In this document: positions 31,213 through 39,189 of the stretch, one piece after another
Layout: the number at the start of each line of letters is the position of its first letter
Position numbering within the stretch: position 1 is the stretch's first letter
Source: Rhodanobacter sp.
Lineage (GTDB): Bacteria > Pseudomonadota > Gammaproteobacteria > Xanthomonadales > Rhodanobacteraceae
Assembly (NCBI GenBank): GCA_040371205.1
Contig: AP031382.1
Span: forward strand, 1,361,562-1,425,561
Length of the DNA: 64,000 nucleotides
Direction of reading: 5' to 3'
Position numbers and translations under genes: made by a program
Notes under the pieces: model-generated
What the model saw: the letters and a program-made list of their open reading frames with translations, nothing else
The model's database searches: none
What the model was told of the DNA's origin: nothing

Positions 31213-31384
31213 GTGGTGCTAAGCAGTTGGTCTCTGCAACGCCATAGTGACCCCCTCGACACATCTTGTCAACGCGTCTCGTGGCGCGATCGGGAGGGCC
31301 TTGCCCGGAATCCATACCGGCTACCACGCCGGCGGGGAGGCTCTGTCTCTCCGACAGGTTGGTGGTCCGCACATTGGCGGGCAT

Positions 31385-32578
31385 ATGGCAAACAATCCCA
31401 CACGCGGCGCTGCTCGCCGTGCCTTTTCAAAAAAACTTCAGGGAATGAGTGAAGACCAGGCCGAGATGATTTTGGCCAACGCCCGATGGGGTTCGGAAGA
31501 TCACCAAGGCTGCCCGCGGTGCGGCACTTTCGCCGTGCACTACCGCCGACGCACGCGCCGTCAGTGGCGATGCCGGATCACCGGTTGCGGTCACGTCTTC
31601 AGCGTTACGAGTGGAACCCGACTCGACAATCACAAACTGCGGTTCCTTCAAATTCTCCGACTCATAGTGTCGTTCGAAGCCTCACCCAAAGGCGTAACGC
31701 TTGCCCGCGTCGCTAACGACGTCGGAATGACGGAAAAGAGCGCGCAGCAAAACCTGTTTAAGGTAAGGGAGGTAATCCGTGACTTCGCCGATCTTTCTCC
31801 ACTCAGCGGCCTAGTCCACATTGACGGAGCTCACCTATGTGGAAAGCTTCGCAAATCCAACCGACGCCTCAAGGCTACCGCTGACGACATTCTTAGTAGG
31901 CATGGCACAGGCGCAATACGTGCTCGTGCACGGAAGATCAATGCGCGCACCCAAGCCAATCTACGCCGTATCAAAAAAAAGCGTGTCGTCATAGCGCTAG
32001 TGGAAGCCTTGCCCGCCAGCAGTCCCGTGCCAGGCGCTTCCGCGAATGCGCCGCGCGGCATATGCCGCGTGATTCCTGCCGTGTGCTACTCGGAGAATCC
32101 AGAGAATGCCATGGAGCTTGCTCGCCGCTACATCAGGCCTGGAAGCATTGTCTTCTCCGATGAAAATCCCGCGTACTCGCGATTCGGCGAGATTTTCGAT
32201 CATCACGTCGTCAACCACTCGTTGGAGTATTCCACGTCTGACGGTGTGTCAGACAATCTCGCGGAGTCGCACTTCTCACGTGGAAGAAGAGCAGAATACG
32301 GGACACACCACGGCTTTCGGCCGGAATATCTCGAGTTTTATATGTGGGAAATGGCTTGGCGCGAAATGCGCCGAAGAAATACGCAAGAAGAGAACGTTGC
32401 CATTCTGCTTCAAAATCTGTTGTCCAAGGGGCTCTCGACTTATGGTCGCGGATACCACGGCGGCAATCGACGCCGCGATCGACGTGCAGTACGTAGGGAA
32501 ATTGTCATGGATCGACCTCAGGCCACTCTGGCAACTGCCAAAGTCGGGGCACGGATCGATCGACAAAAGGATGCCTAA
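31385..32578 (+). CDS. IS1595-family (ISXO2-like) DDE transposase
   Basis: The 397-residue protein has an N-terminal zinc ribbon (Cys43, Cys46, Cys63, Cys68) and then the ISXO2-like DDE domain. Likely catalytic positions are Asp147 in VHIDGAH, Asp259 in VFSDENPAY and the NLAESHFSRGRRAEYGTHHGF block starting at 291, whose glutamate is at 294. I start it at the ATG 31385 (MANNPTRG). The frame opens earlier, at 31247, without family sequence. All motifs appear intact. No separate short inverted repeats flank this gene alone, so it is probably the transposase of the 11.88-kb element. The C-terminus overlaps the convergent 168-residue gene by 74 bases. Confidence 0.88.
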   Translation: MANNPTRGAARRAFSKKLQGMSEDQAEMILANARWGSEDHQGCPRCGTFAVHYRRRTRRQWRCRITGCGHVFSVTSGTRLDNHKLRFLQILRLIVSFEASPKGVTLARVANDVGMTEKSAQQNLFKVREVIRDFADLSPLSGLVHIDGAHLCGKLRKSNRRLKATADDILSRHGTGAIRARARKINARTQANLRRIKKKRVVIALVEALPASSPVPGASANAPRGICRVIPAVCYSENPENAMELARRYIRPGSIVFSDENPAYSRFGEIFDHHVVNHSLEYSTSDGVSDNLAESHFSRGRRAEYGTHHGFRPEYLEFYMWEMAWREMRRRNTQEENVAILLQNLLSKGLSTYGRGYHGGNRRRDRRAVRREIVMDRPQATLATAKVGARIDRQKDA

Positions 32579-33070: not shown

Positions 33071-33622
33071 TGCGTGGCCAGAGAAAAGTAACCAAAAGAG
33101 AGGCCACCCCGATGGCGCGCCCTCCAGGCATCCTGCCTTCCGGGTGCGCGGGTGGGCTGCGGGGTTTTTCGACGGGACTCCTGTCCCGGCGAAAAACTGG
33201 CCCGCATCCTTGCGGGCCATCCTGCGGACTTTCCTTCGCCCACCCGCCGCGCCATAGGGGCCCCGGAAAAGCGGCGCGCTCCCAGCGCGCAGAAGCAACA
33301 GCAACAGCAACAGCAACAGCCGCGAGCTTGCAGGGCTTCGACTTCTGGCGCGCACGATGCGCGCCTGCTCTTCCGGGGCCCCTGGGCGACGGTGAGGCGG
33401 GGACGATCAGGCCGCGCAGCGAGCGAGCCCAAGGAGGGGCTCGCCTTTTCGCGCGGGCAGGAGCCCGCTCGAAAAGCCCGGCCCCGCCTCACGGACTTGC
33501 CGGGCAGGACGCCCGGCAAGCGACGCCCCGAGGTGTCGTTTCCTCTTGGTTACTTCTCCTTTGGACAAGCAAAGGAGAAGTAACTCGGGCGCCGGCAGGC
33601 GCTCGAAACCGCTTTGAAGCGC
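33071..33622. repeat. Interspersed repeat, main part to the right of the transposon
   Basis: The gene-free gap 33012-33686 holds the rest of the repeat split by the transposon. It starts with the right target-site copy TGCGTG (33071-33076) and the second half of the broken hairpin. GC-rich modules centred on a GGGGCCCC-type core follow. It ends at 33541-33614 with TTGGTTACTTCTCCTTTG, a short loop, CAAAGGAGAAGTAACTCGGG and GCGCCGGCAGGCGCTCGAAA. The last 270 bases match, inverted, the left half of the copy at 47 kb. Open frames inside it on both strands look like by-products of GC-rich repeat sequence. Confidence 0.8.
33295..33320 (+). repeat. (GCAACA)4 microsatellite inside the repeat
   Basis: Four perfect copies of GCAACA are followed by GC. 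The equivalent place in the 47-kb copy has one unit only (GAAGCAACAGCC), so the number varies between copies and the tract probably slips in replication. Confidence 0.8.
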
Positions 33623-33686
33623 GCATGGACATGTGGCACTTCGAGCTCGAAGTCATCCCCGGTGCAAACAAGTAACGGTACGCAGC

Positions 33687-34304
33687 TCACCCCGTCCGCG
33701 CCACGAACCGCAACGCCACCGAGTTCATGCAATAGCGCAATCCCGTCGGCTGCGGCCCGTCGTCGAACACGTGGCCGAGGTGGCTGCTGCAGCCGGCGCA
33801 GCTGATGGCGGTGCGCTCCATGCCGAAGCTGTCGTCGCGGGCCTCGATCACGTTCCGCTTGGCGATGGGTCGCCAGAAGCTGGGCCAGCCGGTGCCGGAG
33901 TCGAATTCGGTGGCGGCGTCGTAGAGCGCGGTGGCGCAGGCCACGCAGCGGAACAGGCCGGGTTGCGCGGGACGCTCGTGCGGGCCGCTGAAGGCGCGCT
34001 CGGTGCCGTCGCGGCGCATCACGTCGAACGCCAGCGGCGACAGGCGTGCGCGCCATTGCGCATCGGTGAGCACCAGCCGATGCACGTTGCAGGCGCCGAG
34101 GTTGCGGCCGTCGTCGGCAAAGCATTCCAGCATCACGTCGCCGGGCTGGTCATGTATCAACGACGGCGGACCACCTAGTGCGCCGGCGGCGAGCAGGCGG
34201 GGCAGGGCGAAGCTGCCGCCGACCGCGAGCAGGGCGCCGCCGCTCACGGCGGCGCGCAGGAAGCGGCGGCGATCCATCGCGAGGGTTTCGTCGATGCGGG
34301 TCAT
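33687..34304 (-). CDS. msrB: Peptide-methionine (R)-S-oxide reductase, Tat-exported
   Basis: MsrB reduces the R form of methionine sulfoxide. The 205-residue protein starts with a twin-arginine signal (RRRFLRA at 12-18 followed by a hydrophobic stretch), so it acts in the periplasm. The MsrB domain has zinc cysteines Cys120/Cys123 and Cys169/Cys172, the SGTGWPSF segment and the catalytic Cys192 in RYCMNSVALRF. It lies downstream of dipZ, which would supply electrons across the inner membrane. Together they form a periplasmic methionine-repair system under the neighbouring sigma factor. An internal ATG at 34277 would still keep the Tat motif. Confidence 0.94.
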   Translation of the reverse strand: MTRIDETLAMDRRRFLRAAVSGGALLAVGGSFALPRLLAAGALGGPPSLIHDQPGDVMLECFADDGRNLGACNVHRLVLTDAQWRARLSPLAFDVMRRDGTERAFSGPHERPAQPGLFRCVACATALYDAATEFDSGTGWPSFWRPIAKRNVIEARDDSFGMERTAISCAGCSSHLGHVFDDGPQPTGLRYCMNSVALRFVARTG

Positions 34305-34368
34305 GGCAGGCCTCCATCGCCCATGCGCGTGGGCGTTTGCAACTGCGTGCGGCACGGGCTGCGTGCTT

Positions 34369-34399
34369 CCGCGATCGAGTGCGTCGCACTCGATCGCGG
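34369..34399 (-). other. Intercistronic 13-14-bp hairpin between dipZ and msrB
   Basis: CCGCGATCGAGTG at 34369-34381 pairs perfectly with CACTCGATCGCGG at 34387-34399. It lies in the 161-base gap between the dipZ stop and the msrB start and has no T-run on the coding strand. It may stabilise or partly separate the two messages rather than end transcription. Confidence 0.6.
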
Positions 34400-34465
34400 C
34401 AACGGGTCTGGACAGGCGGCCGGCCCGTCGGCGTGCAAGCCTGCGGGCCGGCCATCCGGCAGGGA

Positions 34466-36193
34466 TCAGCCGAAGGTGAACGCGTAGGCGTGCACGCCGG
34501 GGTCGAGGAAGGTGATGGTGAAGGTGCGTTCGCCGTTGCCGTGGGCCTGGCGCACCAACTGGTACAGGCGCTGCGCGCTGACGGTGCCGTTGCCGTCCGC
34601 GTCGGTGTCCACGCCGTGGTCGGCGCCGGGCGCATGGCCGTCCAGCGTGACGCGGAAGCGCACCGGCTTGCCGTCGCTGCCGGGGCCGAGCACCAGGTGC
34701 AGGTCGCGGCCGCGGAAGCGGTAGGTGATGGAGCCGTTGGCTGCGTCCAGCGTGGCCTCCTGCGGACGCACGGTCCAGCGGCCGTCCAGCGCCCACTGGT
34801 TGGTGGACAGCGTGGCGGGTGCGCGGTAGTCGGACGCATCGTCGTGCGCGACCTCGCCGCCGGCGAAGTTGTCGGCGCGGGCGTAGCCCACGTAGGTTTC
34901 CGGCGAGCGGTCGTAGTCGTTGGAGATGGCCGCTTCCGCGCCCTTCGCGCCGGGCTGCACGTAGCCGCCGGGCAGGTCGGTGTGGCCGGCTGCGGCGAGC
35001 AGCTGGCGGATCACGTCTTCGTCTTCGGCATAGCCGCCTTCGCCGAAGCTGTGGTGGCGGATGCGGCCCCGCGCATCGATGAAATATTCGGCAGGCCAGT
35101 ACTCGTTGCTGAAGCCCTGCCAGATCGCGTAGTCGGAATCCAGCGCCACCGGGTAGGTCACGCCCAGGCGCTGCACCGCCGCCGCCACGTTGGCGCGGTC
35201 CTTCTCGAAGGCGAACTCGGGCGAATGCACGCCGATCACCACCAGGCCGTGGTCCTTGTACTTGTCGTACCAGGCTTCGACGTAGGGCAGCGAGCGCAGG
35301 CAGTTGATGCAGGAGTAGGTCCAGAAATCCACCAGCACCACCTTGCCGCGCAGCATTTCCGGCGTGAGCGGTGTGCTGTTGAGCCAGCCGGTGGCGCCGG
35401 CCAGCGAGGGCAGCGTGCCTTCCACCGGCAGATCCGCGCCGGGCTTGGGCGCGGGCGCCGCCATGGCGCTCGGCATCGGCCGCACGGCGTCGATCAGCTT
35501 CTGTTCGAGGCCGTTGGTGCCGGCCAGCGAGACGCGGGTGAGTACGCCGGTGTCCACGCCGGAGGCGATGGCCGCCACGCCGGCCAGCACCAGCACGCCC
35601 AGCGTGCGGCGCACCCATTGGCCCGCGCCCAGCGAGCGCTTCATCAGCGAGAACACCTTGCCGCCCACCGCCAGCGCCAACGCCAGCGAGGTGGCCGCGC
35701 CCAGCGCGTAGGTGAGCAGCAGCAGGGTGGTGGTGACGCTGGCGCCCTTCAGTGCCGCGCCGGTCAGCAGCAGGCCGAGGATGGGCCCGGCGCACGGTGC
35801 CCACAGCAAGCCGGTGGCGATGCCGAGGCCGGCTGCGGCCCACACGGATTCGCCGTCGCCGTCCGTGCGCTGCGAGAGCCGGTTGCCCAGCGCCACGAAC
35901 GGCCGCGTCAGCCACTCCGCGACATGTGTGGAAAGCAGGGTGAGGCCGAGCAGGGCCAGCACCACCAGCGCCACGGCGCGGCCGTACTGGTTGGCGTGCA
36001 CCGCCCAGCCGCCGCCCACGGCGGCCAGCGTGGCGACCAGCGCGAAGGTGGCTGCCATGCCGATCAGCATCGGCAGGCCGCTTTTCAGGAACGGACGGTC
36101 GGCGCGCGCGAACACGAAGGGCAGCACCGGCAGGATGCAGGGGCTGAGGATGGTGAGCACGCCGCCGAGGTAGGCAAGGATCAGCAGGAGCAT
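34466..36193 (-). CDS. dipZ: DipZ: CcdA/DsbD-type transmembrane reductase fused to thioredoxin
   Basis: The 575-residue protein moves electrons from the cytoplasm to the periplasm. A CcdA/DsbD membrane domain comes first, with its paired cysteines at Cys19 (LSPCILP) and Cys134 (WAPCAGP). A periplasmic thioredoxin-like domain follows, with active site CINC at 295-298. A C-terminal beta-sandwich domain of the DipZ type ends in FLDPGVHAYAFTFG. The start at 36193 (MLLLILAYLGG) places the first helix correctly; the frame extends to 36244 without support. A sigma-F-type promoter lies about 30 bases upstream. The msrB gene follows, so methionine sulfoxide repair is the likely outlet for the electrons. 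Confidence 0.93.
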   Translation of the reverse strand: MLLLILAYLGGVLTILSPCILPVLPFVFARADRPFLKSGLPMLIGMAATFALVATLAAVGGGWAVHANQYGRAVALVVLALLGLTLLSTHVAEWLTRPFVALGNRLSQRTDGDGESVWAAAGLGIATGLLWAPCAGPILGLLLTGAALKGASVTTTLLLLTYALGAATSLALALAVGGKVFSLMKRSLGAGQWVRRTLGVLVLAGVAAIASGVDTGVLTRVSLAGTNGLEQKLIDAVRPMPSAMAAPAPKPGADLPVEGTLPSLAGATGWLNSTPLTPEMLRGKVVLVDFWTYSCINCLRSLPYVEAWYDKYKDHGLVVIGVHSPEFAFEKDRANVAAAVQRLGVTYPVALDSDYAIWQGFSNEYWPAEYFIDARGRIRHHSFGEGGYAEDEDVIRQLLAAAGHTDLPGGYVQPGAKGAEAAISNDYDRSPETYVGYARADNFAGGEVAHDDASDYRAPATLSTNQWALDGRWTVRPQEATLDAANGSITYRFRGRDLHLVLGPGSDGKPVRFRVTLDGHAPGADHGVDTDADGNGTVSAQRLYQLVRQAHGNGERTFTITFLDPGVHAYAFTFG

Positions 36194-36220
36194 GGTGGTG
36201 GTTCCGGGTTGAGGTGTGCT

Positions 36221-36251
36221 GGTGATTCGTTGCCATCGAGCCAACGGTTAC
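36221..36251 (-). promoter_or_regulatory. Sigma-F-type promoter of dipZ-msrB
   Basis: On the minus strand GTAACC (36251-36246) and CGAAT (36229-36225) are spaced by exactly 16 bases, with CACC following. The divergent promoter at 36267-36297 has the same GTAACC-N16-CGAATCACC pattern. It matches the GTAACC-N16-CGAA sequence reported for sigma-F of Caulobacter. The dipZ start is about 30 bases downstream. Confidence 0.8.
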
Positions 36252-36266
36252 ATCGTCCGATACGAG

Positions 36267-36297
36267 GTAACCGCAGCGATGGATGCGTCGAATCACC
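36267..36297 (+). promoter_or_regulatory. Sigma-F-type promoter of the sigma factor-nrsF operon
   Basis: GTAACC at 36267-36272, a 16-base spacer and CGAATCACC at 36289-36297 repeat the pattern of the divergent dipZ promoter in the opposite direction. This implies that the sigma factor drives its own gene. Confidence 0.8.
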
Positions 36298-36393
36298 GGA
36301 AGGAACCGCAACCGGGACGAATAACTCTTGACCGCCGACGGCACCTTGGTATGGGATGGCGGCTTCGCCCCGCGATGGGATTGCCGCGCTTCC

Positions 36394-36975
36394 GTGTCCA
36401 CCGAACCCGCCAGCGCCAACGAACAGGCCGAGCGTCAGCGCGCCGCGTGGATGGCTGCCGCGCAGGCGGGCGACCGCCGCGCCTACGAACGCGTGCTGGC
36501 CGGTTCGGTGGCGCTGATCCGCGCGGTGGCGCGCCGGCAGGGCGTGGGTACGGACGCGCTGGACGACGTGGTGCAGGAAACCCTGCTCACGGTGCATCGC
36601 GTGCGCCATACCTATGACGCGTCGCGCTCCTACGATGCCTGGCTCAGCGCCATCGCCGCGCGGCGCGCCATCGATGCGCTGCGCAGCCACGGCCGGCGCG
36701 ACCGGCGCGAACTGCACGACGACATCGCGCTGGATCAGCACCCCGACCGCGACGACGCGAGCATGGACGCCGAACGCCGCCAGCAGGCGCGGCGCCTGCG
36801 CGAGGCCATCGCGCAGCTGCCGCCGGGCCAGCGCGAGGCGGTGGAACAACTCGGCCTGCGCGAGCGCTCGCTGGCCGAGGCCGCCGAGCACACCGGCCGC
36901 AACGCCGGTGCGCTGAAAGTGAACCTGCACCGCGCCCTGAAGGCCCTGCGCGGTCGCCTGCACGGAGATTCCTGA
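36394..36975 (+). CDS. sigF: Sigma-F-like ECF sigma factor paired with NrsF
   Basis: The product has 193 residues from the GTG at 36394 (MSTEPASANEQAERQRAAWM); a TTG at 36328 would add 22. The sigma-2 region is marked by DALDDVVQETLLTVHRVRH and SYDAWLSAIAARRAIDALR. The sigma-4 region is LPPGQREAVEQLGLRERSLAEAAEHTGR and the following VNLHRALKALR. NrsF follows five bases later and is the membrane anti-sigma of this group. Known members respond to chromate, cadmium or hypochlorite-type oxidation. Three promoters of the expected sequence lie around this locus. Here the likely regulon is itself, nrsF, dipZ-msrB and the Met/Lys repeat protein. Confidence 0.9.
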   Translation: MSTEPASANEQAERQRAAWMAAAQAGDRRAYERVLAGSVALIRAVARRQGVGTDALDDVVQETLLTVHRVRHTYDASRSYDAWLSAIAARRAIDALRSHGRRDRRELHDDIALDQHPDRDDASMDAERRQQARRLREAIAQLPPGQREAVEQLGLRERSLAEAAEHTGRNAGALKVNLHRALKALRGRLHGDS

Positions 36976-36980
36976 GCGTC

Positions 36981-37628
36981 ATGTCCGAACCACGCCACCA
37001 GATCCTGATCGACGCGCTCGGTGCCGAGCTGGTGCCCGTGCGGCGCCTGCTGCCGCCGTGGCGCCGAACGCTGGGTTGGCTGGCGCTGGTGGCGCTCATC
37101 GCCGCCGGGCTGTTCGCGCATTACGGCGACCAGCCCATGCTGCGTCGCTGGGCCGGTGCGCCGGATCTGGCCTGGGCGGCGCTTGGCGCGGTGCTCACGA
37201 CGATCACCGCCGCCTGGGCGGCGTTCGCGCTGGCCGTGCCGGGGCGCGCGCGCGCCTGGGCCTGGCTGCCGCTGCCGCCCGCGCTGCTGTGGATCGGCGC
37301 CAGCGGCCTGGGTTGCCTGCGCACCTGGCTGGCGCCGGGCACCAGCATCGCCACCTTGCACCAGTCGGCCGACTGCTTCGTCTTCATCGTCTCCTTCTCG
37401 ATTCCGCTGTCGGCGGTGCTGGTGTGGCTGCTGCGCCGCGCCTGCCCGCTGCGCCCCGTGCTCACGGCGATGCTGGTGGGGCTGGCCAGCGCCGCGGCGT
37501 CGGCCAGCCTGTTGGAGATCTGCCATGCCTTCGATGCCGCCGCCACCGACCTGCTGACCCATGCGCTGGCGGTGGGCATCGTGATCGCGGCGAATGCGGC
37601 GATGGGCGGCCGGCTGTTGTCGAGGTAA
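36981..37628 (+). CDS. nrsF: NrsF (DUF1109) membrane anti-sigma factor
   Basis: The 215-residue protein fits the NrsF/DUF1109 family, with six predicted membrane helices and a short cytoplasmic N-terminus that ends PPWRRTLGW. Cysteines lie at 112, 132, 155 and 181. In the Caulobacter protein two cysteines, at nearly the same positions as 132 and 181, are needed for release of the sigma factor by metals or oxidants, as I recall the literature. The gene starts five bases after the sigma-factor stop. Its own stop codon lies within the -35 box of the next promoter. Confidence 0.9.
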   Translation: MSEPRHQILIDALGAELVPVRRLLPPWRRTLGWLALVALIAAGLFAHYGDQPMLRRWAGAPDLAWAALGAVLTTITAAWAAFALAVPGRARAWAWLPLPPALLWIGASGLGCLRTWLAPGTSIATLHQSADCFVFIVSFSIPLSAVLVWLLRRACPLRPVLTAMLVGLASAAASASLLEICHAFDAAATDLLTHALAVGIVIAANAAMGGRLLSR

Positions 37629-37650
37629 CCGGCCGCGTGCCTGCGACGAA
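37625..37650 (+). promoter_or_regulatory. Sigma-F-type promoter of the MXKDX repeat gene
   Basis: GTAACC at 37625-37630, a 16-base spacer and CGAA at 37647-37650 form the third copy of the sigma-F pattern in this locus. The -35 box overlaps the nrsF stop codon. Expected initiation, about 37655-37660, falls in the left arm of the terminator hairpin that follows. Confidence 0.75.
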
Positions 37651-37651
37651 G

Positions 37652-37688
37652 AAAGGGACGGAGGCGAGCCGCTCGCCTCCGTCCCTTT
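37652..37688 (+). terminator. Terminator of the sigma factor-nrsF operon
   Basis: AAAGGGACGGAGGCGAG at 37652-37668 pairs perfectly with CTCGCCTCCGTCCCTTT at 37672-37688 (17 base pairs, three-base loop), and the right arm runs into TTTT. A transcript from the nrsF side would form the whole stem and stop. One starting at the promoter at 37625-37650 would lack part of the left arm and could read through. Confidence 0.8.
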
Positions 37689-37707
37689 TCCATTCGAGGA
37701 TCAGCCC

Positions 37708-38022
37708 ATGAACGCACGCACGCTAGCCGCACTCGCGCTTTCCGCCGCCGTCGGCGCCTTCGCCTTCGCGCCTGCCCATGCGCAGGATGCGATGGCTGCC
37801 AGTTCCAGCTCCGCCATGTCGCACGATGCCATGCAGTCCAAGGATGCCATGCACAAGGACGGCATGAAGATGAAGAAGGACGCGATGAAGTCCAAATCCA
37901 TGCATCACGACGGCATGATGAAGAAGGACGGCGCGATGAAAATGAAGAAAGACGATGCGATGAAGATGAAGCAGGACGACACGATGAAGAAGGATGCCGG
38001 CGACGCGATGAGCGGCGGCTGA
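37708..38022 (+). CDS. Pentapeptide MXKDX repeat protein, exported Met/Lys-rich
   Basis: The 104-residue protein has a signal peptide that should be cut after APAHA. The rest is almost wholly Met, Lys, Asp, Ser and His in short repeats of the form MxKDx (for example MQSKDAMHKDGMKMKKDAM). NCBI family naming includes a pentapeptide MXKDX repeat protein with this pattern, often beside DUF1109 genes. Its role is unproven. The many surface methionines could serve as a sacrificial oxidant sink repaired by the nearby MsrB-DipZ, or bind copper-type metals. GAGGA precedes the ATG, and a sigma-F-type promoter precedes the gene. Confidence 0.85.
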   Translation: MNARTLAALALSAAVGAFAFAPAHAQDAMAASSSSAMSHDAMQSKDAMHKDGMKMKKDAMKSKSMHHDGMMKKDGAMKMKKDDAMKMKQDDTMKKDAGDAMSGG

Positions 38023-38115
38023 GGCGCCCGCGGCATGGCGGGCGCCGTCGTCCGTCATGCCGCCTTGCCGGCGGACGGCGGATAATGGCGCGGTTCTCCG
38101 CCGCGGGCGACGCGC

Positions 38116-39189
38116 ATGGTTTCCTTTGCACAGCAGTTCGGCATCGAGCATCCCCTGGTCCAGGCGCCGATGGCTGGCGCCAGCACGCCGCAGATGGCGG
38201 CCGCCGTCTCGGAGGCGGGCGGCCTGGGTTCGCTGGGCGTGGGCTATGCCGAGCCGCAGGCCATCGTCGACCAGGCAGCGCAGACCCGCGCGCTCACCGG
38301 CCGCCCGTTCGCACTCAACCTGTTCGTGCTGCCCGACGATGTCGAGCCGGACATGGCGGCGGTGGCGCGCGCCCGTGCGCGACTGGATGCGCTGATGGAA
38401 CGCGAAGGACTGGCCGTGCGCACCACGCTGCCGACGCGCTGGGCGCCGCGCTTCTCCGACCAGTTCGCCGCCTTGTGCGAGGCGCGGCCCGCGGTGGCCA
38501 GCTTCGCGTTCGACCTGCTCACGCCGGCGCAGATGCAGGAGCTGAAGCGCCGCGACATCCGCGTCATCGGCACCGCCACCACGGCGGCGGAGGCGCGTGC
38601 CTGGGCCGAGCGAGGCGCGGACGCGGTGTGCGTGCAGGGCGCCGAGGCGGGCGGCCATCGCGGCGGTTTCCTGCCTGCCGGCGACACGCCGCTGATCGGC
38701 CTGTTCGCGCTGATTCCGCTGGCCGTGGCGGCCTGCGACGGCGTGCCGGTGATCGCCGCAGGCGGCATCATGGACGGCGCCGGCATGCTCGCCGCCGAAG
38801 TGCTGGGTGCGGCGGCCAGCCAGCTCGGCACGGCCTTCCTCGCCTGTCCCGAATCCGCCGCGGCGGAAGCGTGGAAGCGCGACCTGGTGACGGCGGAAGA
38901 CCATCGCGTCGGCACCATCCGCAGCTTCTCCGGGCGTGCCGCGCGCGGCTTGCGCAACCGCTACGTCGAGGCGATGGAAGCGCTTGCGGACGAGTTGCCC
39001 GCGTATCCCGTGCTCAACGCGCTCACCGCGCCGTTGCGGCGTGCGGCCGCCGCGGCCGGTCGCGCGGATCTCGTTTCCGAATGGTGCGGCCAGGCGGCCG
39101 CGCGGGTGCGTCCGCAACCCGCCGCCGAACTGGTGGCGCGGCTGATGCACGAATACCGGCTGGCGCGTCGCGCCGTCGCGCCGCATTGA
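38116..39189 (+). CDS. Nitronate monooxygenase / FMN-dependent 2-nitropropane dioxygenase family
   Basis: The 357-residue protein is a TIM-barrel flavoenzyme. It opens with HPLVQAPMAGASTPQMAAAV and has SLGVGY early on. It contains the GADAVCVQGAEAGGHRG block with the active-site histidine, and the phosphate-binding VPVIAAGGIMDGAGM and GAAASQLGTAFL strands. Members oxidise nitronates or act as enoyl reductases; the true substrate here is not shown. It follows the sigma-F module on the same strand but has its own gap of 93 bases. It ends just before rsfS. Confidence 0.88.
   Translation: MVSFAQQFGIEHPLVQAPMAGASTPQMAAAVSEAGGLGSLGVGYAEPQAIVDQAAQTRALTGRPFALNLFVLPDDVEPDMAAVARARARLDALMEREGLAVRTTLPTRWAPRFSDQFAALCEARPAVASFAFDLLTPAQMQELKRRDIRVIGTATTAAEARAWAERGADAVCVQGAEAGGHRGGFLPAGDTPLIGLFALIPLAVAACDGVPVIAAGGIMDGAGMLAAEVLGAAASQLGTAFLACPESAAAEAWKRDLVTAEDHRVGTIRSFSGRAARGLRNRYVEAMEALADELPAYPVLNALTAPLRRAAAAAGRADLVSEWCGQAAARVRPQPAAELVARLMHEYRLARRAVAPH

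Follow-up and report, generated by a model that had tools for sequence, protein, structure and literature searches.

A putative ECF16-type sigma factor circuit for the protection and repair of periplasmic methionine in Rhodanobacter sp.

Comparative sequence analysis indicates that a compact gene cluster of Rhodanobacter sp. very probably encodes an ECF16-type sigma/anti-sigma circuit that protects and repairs periplasmic methionine. The cluster lies in a 64-kb window (the whole stretch of DNA analysed, positions 1361562-1425561 of a 3.48-Mb single-contig genome) and comprises msrB and dipZ on the reverse strand, a divergent promoter region, sigF and nrsF on the forward strand, and then metK. 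A sequence-only reading had joined the sigma factor, NrsF, electron supply, MsrB and a methionine-rich peptide in one circuit, and the comparison with relatives supports this proposal: the divergent promoter pair recurs in 40 of 40 loci, and a third predicted promoter occurs in 15 of the 17 loci that carry a methionine-rich gene beside nrsF versus none of 21 that do not.

The msrB gene (33687..34304, reverse strand) encodes a peptide-methionine (R)-S-oxide reductase (SelR, E=7.6e-44; TIGR00357 above cut-off) with a putative export signal of the RRRFLRAA type at its N-terminus, recognised by eye. The protein contains two CxxC pairs, a terminal RYC and two extra cysteines in its N-terminal part; the CxxC pairs and the RYC fit a zinc-binding MsrB, and the two extra cysteines could resolve the disulfide. 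The neighbouring dipZ (34466..36193, reverse strand) encodes a membrane protein with a DsbD/CcdA-like part and a thioredoxin-like domain (Thioredoxin_10, E=1.5e-51; Redoxin, 7.5e-11), the DsbD_TM match (4.6e-6, 26.5 bits) lying slightly below its cut-off of 27.1. Exactly four cysteines are found in DipZ, namely C19 and C134 in the membrane part, and C295 and C298, which form the CINC pair of the thioredoxin-like domain; this is the arrangement that a predicted electron relay would need.

On the opposite strand, sigF (36328..36975) starts with TTG, a position occupied by methionine in eight of the nine family orthologues aligned, and its ECF sigma factor product holds regions 2 and 4 only, according to general sigma70 profiles (r2, 1.4e-10; r4_2, 9.3e-11). 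Directly downstream, as expected for ECF16 systems, nrsF (36981..37628, forward strand) encodes a predicted membrane anti-sigma factor (PF06532, DUF1109; E=5.5e-20, 72.5 bits, cut-off 26.8). The gene labelled metK in this analysis (37708..38022, forward strand) encodes a predicted exported peptide rich in Met, Lys and Asp, which scores E=2.8e-8 and 33.6 bits with the MXKDX profile TIGR02953, short of the cut-off of 41; following a signal peptide assigned by eye, its predicted mature part has 79 residues, 16 of them methionine.

Anti-sigma factors of this kind carry two conserved cysteines, C131/C181 in Caulobacter and C129/C179 in Bradyrhizobium. C132 of the present NrsF is matched in 11 of 11 aligned NrsF proteins, in an alignment that includes 10 distant NrsF and leaves the Caulobacter and Bradyrhizobium sequences outside it. 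The second conserved cysteine stands here in the order C-H (C181-H182, window positions 37521-37526) versus H-C in seven of the 10 distant NrsF aligned, and a simple pattern applied to 44 ORFs returned H-C in 23, C-H in five and neither in 16. The shifted cysteine corresponds to the proposed stress-release residue of Bradyrhizobium OsrA, in which replacement of C129 gives constitutive activity and the C179S variant is not released by peroxide (PMC3420878).

MsrP is absent from this genome by profile search (NF003767), as is exported MsrA by protein search, so that by known enzymes only the R form of the sulfoxide would be repaired in the periplasm. Rfam gave no match at gathering score across 33500-38500. 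Around the cluster, an inverted repeat, ttacttctccttt...aaaggagaagtaa, lies at 33550-33583 downstream of msrB, the pattern made of its right arm and beyond occurring once in the genome, and an ORF at 31247-32578, a few kb away, resembles an insertion-sequence transposase by eye.

The promoter motif GTAACC-N16-CGAA has exactly three matches in the window (mean of 100 shuffles: 0.02), and these are the three that the sequence-only reading had pointed out for their exact spacing. The first, P1 (36226..36251, reverse strand; -35 GTAACC, -10 CGAA, spacer 16), is the predicted sigF-type promoter of dipZ-msrB; the second, P2 (36267..36292, forward strand), that of the sigF-nrsF operon, which would imply autoregulation; and the third, P3 (37625..37650, forward strand), that of metK. 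As had been described, P1 and P2 stand back to back and both continue downstream as CGAATCACC; their -35 elements are 15 bp apart. The continuation of P3 differs (CGAAGAAAG), and its -35 element shares bases with the TAA stop codon of nrsF (37626-37628). From the end of the -10 element to the start codon, the distance is 32 nt for dipZ, 35 nt for sigF and 57 nt for metK. When scored with a matrix built from 60 sites in 23 other genomes, the core columns of which are fixed by the selection of those 60, the three sites reach 35.5, 32.7 and 31.4, while the next-best place in the window reaches 12.6. The site set prefers G-A-N before GTAACC, and G before and T after CGAA, and its spacer is poorly conserved. 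The match to the sigma-F-binding sequence of Caulobacter, which had also been proposed, holds, since the same motif is given in PMC3511200, and the three sites fit the ECF16 target promoter quoted as tGTAACc-N16-CGAA in PMC3420878.

The genome-wide motif search that the sequence-only reading had suggested was run and yielded one extra site before a catalase-family gene, with no enrichment: in the whole 3.48-Mb genome the exact motif has six matches and its reversed control likewise six, and the loosened form GTAAC-N17-CGAA has seven versus 21 for its reversed control. Genome-wide enrichment was therefore dropped as proof, and lone sites elsewhere are weak evidence. The three sites of the cluster fall within 1.43 kb, versus 0.0025 expected at the genome's own match density. 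Motif counts alone would prove little, and it is the comparison among relatives that appears to decide the case.

NrsF was sought in 61 genomes and gave a match in 26, with a close orthologue in 24, this genome included. In every one of these 24 genomes of the family, a divergent pair corresponding to P1 and P2, counted at least as GTAAC-N17-CGAA, lies between dipZ (or msrB) and sigF. Named loci with a close nrsF, mainly from Rhodanobacter, Dyella, Frateuria and Fulvimonas, numbered 25, nine of them shared with the 24-genome set; the 16 further loci all have the pair, which brings the total to 40 of 40, the present locus included. At L046 dipZ is missing from the locus and msrB stands directly under P1, and L251, L259 and L260 look alike.

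The distribution of P3 follows that of the methionine-rich gene. Such a gene lies beside nrsF in 16 of the 24 family genomes, with P3 in 15 of these 16, and P3 is found in none of the eight family genomes without it. Two of the 16 further loci break off too close to nrsF for a judgement, and 13 of the remaining 14 have neither the gene nor P3. The exceptions, with the gene beside nrsF but no P3, are L045 and L250. Taken together, 15 of 17 loci with the gene beside nrsF have P3 versus 0 of 21 without (Fisher 8.8e-9, a value that overstates independence, as the loci are related); the criterion for 'Met-rich' differed slightly between the two locus sets. Over the 15 loci, P3 lies anywhere from -1 to 273 nt from the nrsF stop, and in L118, the one such genome seen, metK lies away from nrsF and the site accompanies it. 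By these comparisons, P3 appears to go with metK and not with position, and the three sites are supported as promoters served by a single ECF16-type sigma factor.

In the stretch from P3 to the metK start codon, a feature absent from the sequence-only reading was observed, namely a 17-bp stem-loop with a 3-nt loop, followed by a short T run (TTTT; 37652..37688, forward strand). The 57-nt metK leader folds at -35.8 kcal/mol, with none of 300 shuffles as low. The Bradyrhizobium ecfF transcript starts 6 nt after its -10 (PMC3420878); by analogy, the 5' end of the metK mRNA is predicted near 37656, within the opening bases of the stem, and starts from P1 and P2 would lie near 36220 (reverse strand) and 36298 (forward strand). 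Out of 17 leaders folded, eight were surpassed in stability by at most 10 of 300 shuffles and nine were not, with L051, L054 and L226 showing nothing. Fifteen leaders were aligned, from which L042, L046, L049 and L050 were left out as out of register, while L054, L226 and L206 stood outside the alignment; across the 11 leaders that could be aligned, the stem is paired in 89.7% of cells, both partners differ in four of its pairs, and the covariation score was reached by shuffles in seven of 500 cases, slid versions being lower. These data are moderate evidence for a kept stem, with modest covariation.

The hairpin may simply terminate the sigF-nrsF transcript or form its end structure, with no special role for metK, and to this we would give somewhat less than an even chance. 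A G+C-rich stem of 17 bp followed by TTTT downstream of nrsF is what such a structure would look like, and the 150 nt that follow nrsF can also fold stably in the absence of metK: when the best window in this interval was taken in 23 loci lacking P3, it was very stable in five (L038, L251, L253, L254 and L256; at most one of 200 shuffles, a best-of-many figure). This control ruled out the stem after nrsF as a peculiarity of metK loci. What is peculiar to the metK leaders is a stem directly after the P3 -10, whatever the distance to nrsF, and the hairpin begins a few nt from that -10 even where P3 lies 273 nt from nrsF (L036, L043), which speaks against a plain terminator, as does a scan for terminator-like sites that did not list the hairpin. 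The leader of L118, which lies away from nrsF, folds alike, but 61 of 300 shuffles do at least as well.

That P3 and the hairpin form one device is, in our estimation, quite unlikely. Long sigF-nrsF transcripts would then be halted at the hairpin or processed there, whereas sigF-dependent transcripts begun inside it would escape and carry a protective 5'-terminal stem. Were this so, expression of the sacrificial peptide would be strictly sigF-dependent, post-transcriptionally boosted and set apart from basal sigF-nrsF transcription. More generally, the leader hairpin may add a control layer for the sacrificial peptide.

The regulon had been described as local, a restriction that does not stand, as sites also precede a catalase-family gene in this genome and exported MsrA in relatives. 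The further exact site in this genome (1328991-1329016) lies 69 kb from the cluster and 31 nt before the catalase-family gene (PF00199, 5e-30), the product of which has an N-terminal hydrophobic stretch by eye. The two remaining genome sites look like chance occurrences, L061 being inside long ORFs and L062 overlapping a start codon.

MsrA was searched by protein and not by motif, in order to avoid circularity, in 37 genomes, and the DNA upstream of the 30 best loci was inspected. The exported MsrA of the relatives has a lipobox-like LLGAC, recognised by eye, and is missing from two of the 24 sigF genomes, the present one and G008. The site precedes it in 22 of 22 loci of sigF genomes (21 exact, one with GTAACT) versus none of eight loci from genomes without this sigF (Fisher 1.7e-7, relatedness ignored). 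With 57-63% identity to the query, three of these eight count as clear orthologues, and the other five are at 41-50%. Distant relatives of the regulator occur in three of the eight site-less genomes (G020, NrsF at 35%; G024 and G025, sigma at 34-37%), so that the site seems to follow this sigma factor and not any relative. For the catalase-family gene, the site was seen in 12 of the 15 loci that come from sigF genomes (eight exact, one with a mismatch, three with a 15-nt spacer, one of which also has a mismatch) and in one of five from genomes without sigF; that one assembly is 87% complete and may simply miss sigF.

Sixty-one scattered sites were also inspected (three in this genome, 48 in other members of the genus and 10 in other genera, these 10 chosen by eye for GCGAA). 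Among the sites listed, at least 15 of the 61 precede exported MsrA (nine read in frame, all 15 confirmed by place), at least six a catalase-family gene, at least one metK (L118) and at least one a second msrB (L091). Sites listed before trxB (L075, L103) and dsbD (L089, L120), one of each pair scanned and one found by eye, point to a possible extension of the regulon to electron supply; with two genomes each, these are leads only. The loci L067, L082 and L106 hold related secreted-protein genes, each with GTAACC-N16-CGAA 14-92 nt before the start chosen by script.

In the circuit as we propose it, NrsF would hold SigF at the membrane until it is released by an oxidant that acts from the periplasm and resembles hypochlorite or otherwise oxidises methionine, upon which SigF would raise its own operon and its targets. 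The methionine-rich peptide would be oxidised in place of other proteins, as a sink, and MsrB would reduce the (R)-methionine sulfoxide again with electrons passing from the cytosol to the membrane cysteines C19/C134 of DipZ, on to its CINC pair and from there to MsrB. NrsF would then shut the circuit off. The candidate inducing stresses, namely hypochlorite, peroxide, chromate and cadmium, are borrowed from other species.

This type of circuit is already known from Caulobacter, Brucella, Azospira and Bradyrhizobium. EcfF-OsrA of Bradyrhizobium japonicum similarly combines an ECF16 sigma factor with a DUF1109 anti-sigma factor, GTAAC-type promoters and autoregulation, and among its targets are peptide-methionine sulfoxide reductases as well as a DsbD-like protein accompanied by a membrane thioredoxin. 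It differs in that its promoter spacing is N14-15, its targets are spread over seven transcription units, several of them hypothetical proteins, and Table 3 of the report names no methionine-rich peptide (PMC3420878). The BcrS-AbcS-BcrXQP system of Brucella melitensis (ECF16), which is induced by HOCl, shares the back-to-back TGTAACC/CGAA promoters, a DUF1109 anti-sigma factor, and an MXKDX peptide together with a methionine sulfoxide reductase system, but there repair is performed by MsrPQ homologues with quinone electrons, in contrast to MsrB with DipZ here (PMC8315932). SigF-NrsF-MrpX-YedYZ of Azospira suillum likewise joins a sigma factor, NrsF and a methionine-rich peptide in a periplasmic methionine cycle; its reductase is instead YedYZ and it is set within perchlorate reduction islands, two of which are noted to have exported MsrA and MsrB (PMC4623255). 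Caulobacter crescentus sigma-F/NrsF has the GTAACC-N16-CGAA promoter, NrsF and a small regulon in common with the present system, yet its targets are DUF692, DUF2063, DUF2282 and DoxX genes and YedY, and msrA expression was unchanged (PMC3511200). In Haemophilus influenzae RpoE2-HrsE, an ECF sigma factor also raises a periplasmic methionine sulfoxide reductase with a link to HOCl, although it belongs to Group 13 and has a 67-aa cytoplasmic anti-sigma factor, another type of regulator (PMC7907618).

In MrpX/BcrXQP-type operons the partner is an MsrP(Q)/YedYZ reductase, whereas this genome lacks MsrP and has MsrB and DipZ instead. DipZ-MsrB stands where MsrPQ would, under the same regulator class, and the cluster would represent a compact, testable periplasmic methionine repair system running on thiol electrons and not on the molybdoenzyme MsrPQ, a route to which relatives add exported MsrA. 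As far as our searches go, the parts list and the host group are new: no report of this combination was found in the literature searched, in which coverage of subscription journals was mostly missing. With these findings, the Rhodanobacter family would join the hosts of ECF16-type methionine sulfoxide circuits, and the regulon can be predicted in these genomes from the promoter rule.

A circuit that mainly answers metal stress (copper, chromate or cadmium), with the peptide as a metal binder and not an oxidant sink, is possible but unlikely. Methionine binds copper. Caulobacter sigma-F responds to chromate and cadmium and not to the doses of peroxide, paraquat and diamide tried in that report (PMC3511200), and many NrsF loci elsewhere adjoin DUF692/DUF2282 genes by eye, a type linked to copper-binding bufferins (PMC12452194). 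The targets seen here nevertheless comprise a thiol relay with its methionine sulfoxide reductase as well as a catalase-family gene, joined by MsrA in relatives, and the DUF692-like type sits in two family genomes that lack this sigF. In these two, L121 (G024) and L122 (G025), a DUF692/DUF2282-like cluster recognised by eye is accompanied by an ECF sigma factor 34-37% identical to SigF and by three GTAACC-N16-CGAA sites each; an NrsF-like protein, also by eye, was seen in L122 only.

It is very improbable that only P1 and P2 are real and that P3 arises by chance from the nrsF stop codon (GTAACC contains TAA), with metK transcribed by read-through from sigF-nrsF, for although the -35 overlaps this stop in seven of the 15 P3 loci, the present one included, and the P3 -10 lacks the T usual after CGAA at P1/P2 sites, P3 sits 3 to 273 nt past the stop in the other eight, is absent in all 21 loci without the methionine-rich gene and accompanies metK in L118, where nrsF does not adjoin, and a strong hairpin separates nrsF from metK. 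Reading of metK from the sigF operon only was accordingly dropped, given the co-occurrence of P3 and metK.

Across the phylum, NrsF exceeds the Pfam cut-off in 75 of 398 genomes. Forty of these loci, picked for family diversity, were inspected: at least one GTAAC-N17-CGAA occurs in 32 of the 40 stretches and none in eight. The neighbours of NrsF vary, by eye and clustering, from DUF692/DUF2282-like genes to methionine-rich peptides with DUF1223-like genes and to DsbD with peroxiredoxin-like genes; MsrA-like ORFs are present in four and DipZ-like ORFs in two of the 40 stretches. One locus from another family of the same class, L226, holds a methionine-rich peptide and an exported MsrB, each with its own site, followed by DipZ and an MsrA-like ORF, much as in the present cluster, although a search in front of its sigma gene gave no site. 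By its gene content, the present cluster type appears to exist outside the family, in one of the 40 loci. In L242 and L243, the sigma gene has DsbD-like and peroxiredoxin-like ORFs as neighbours, which may represent another target set.
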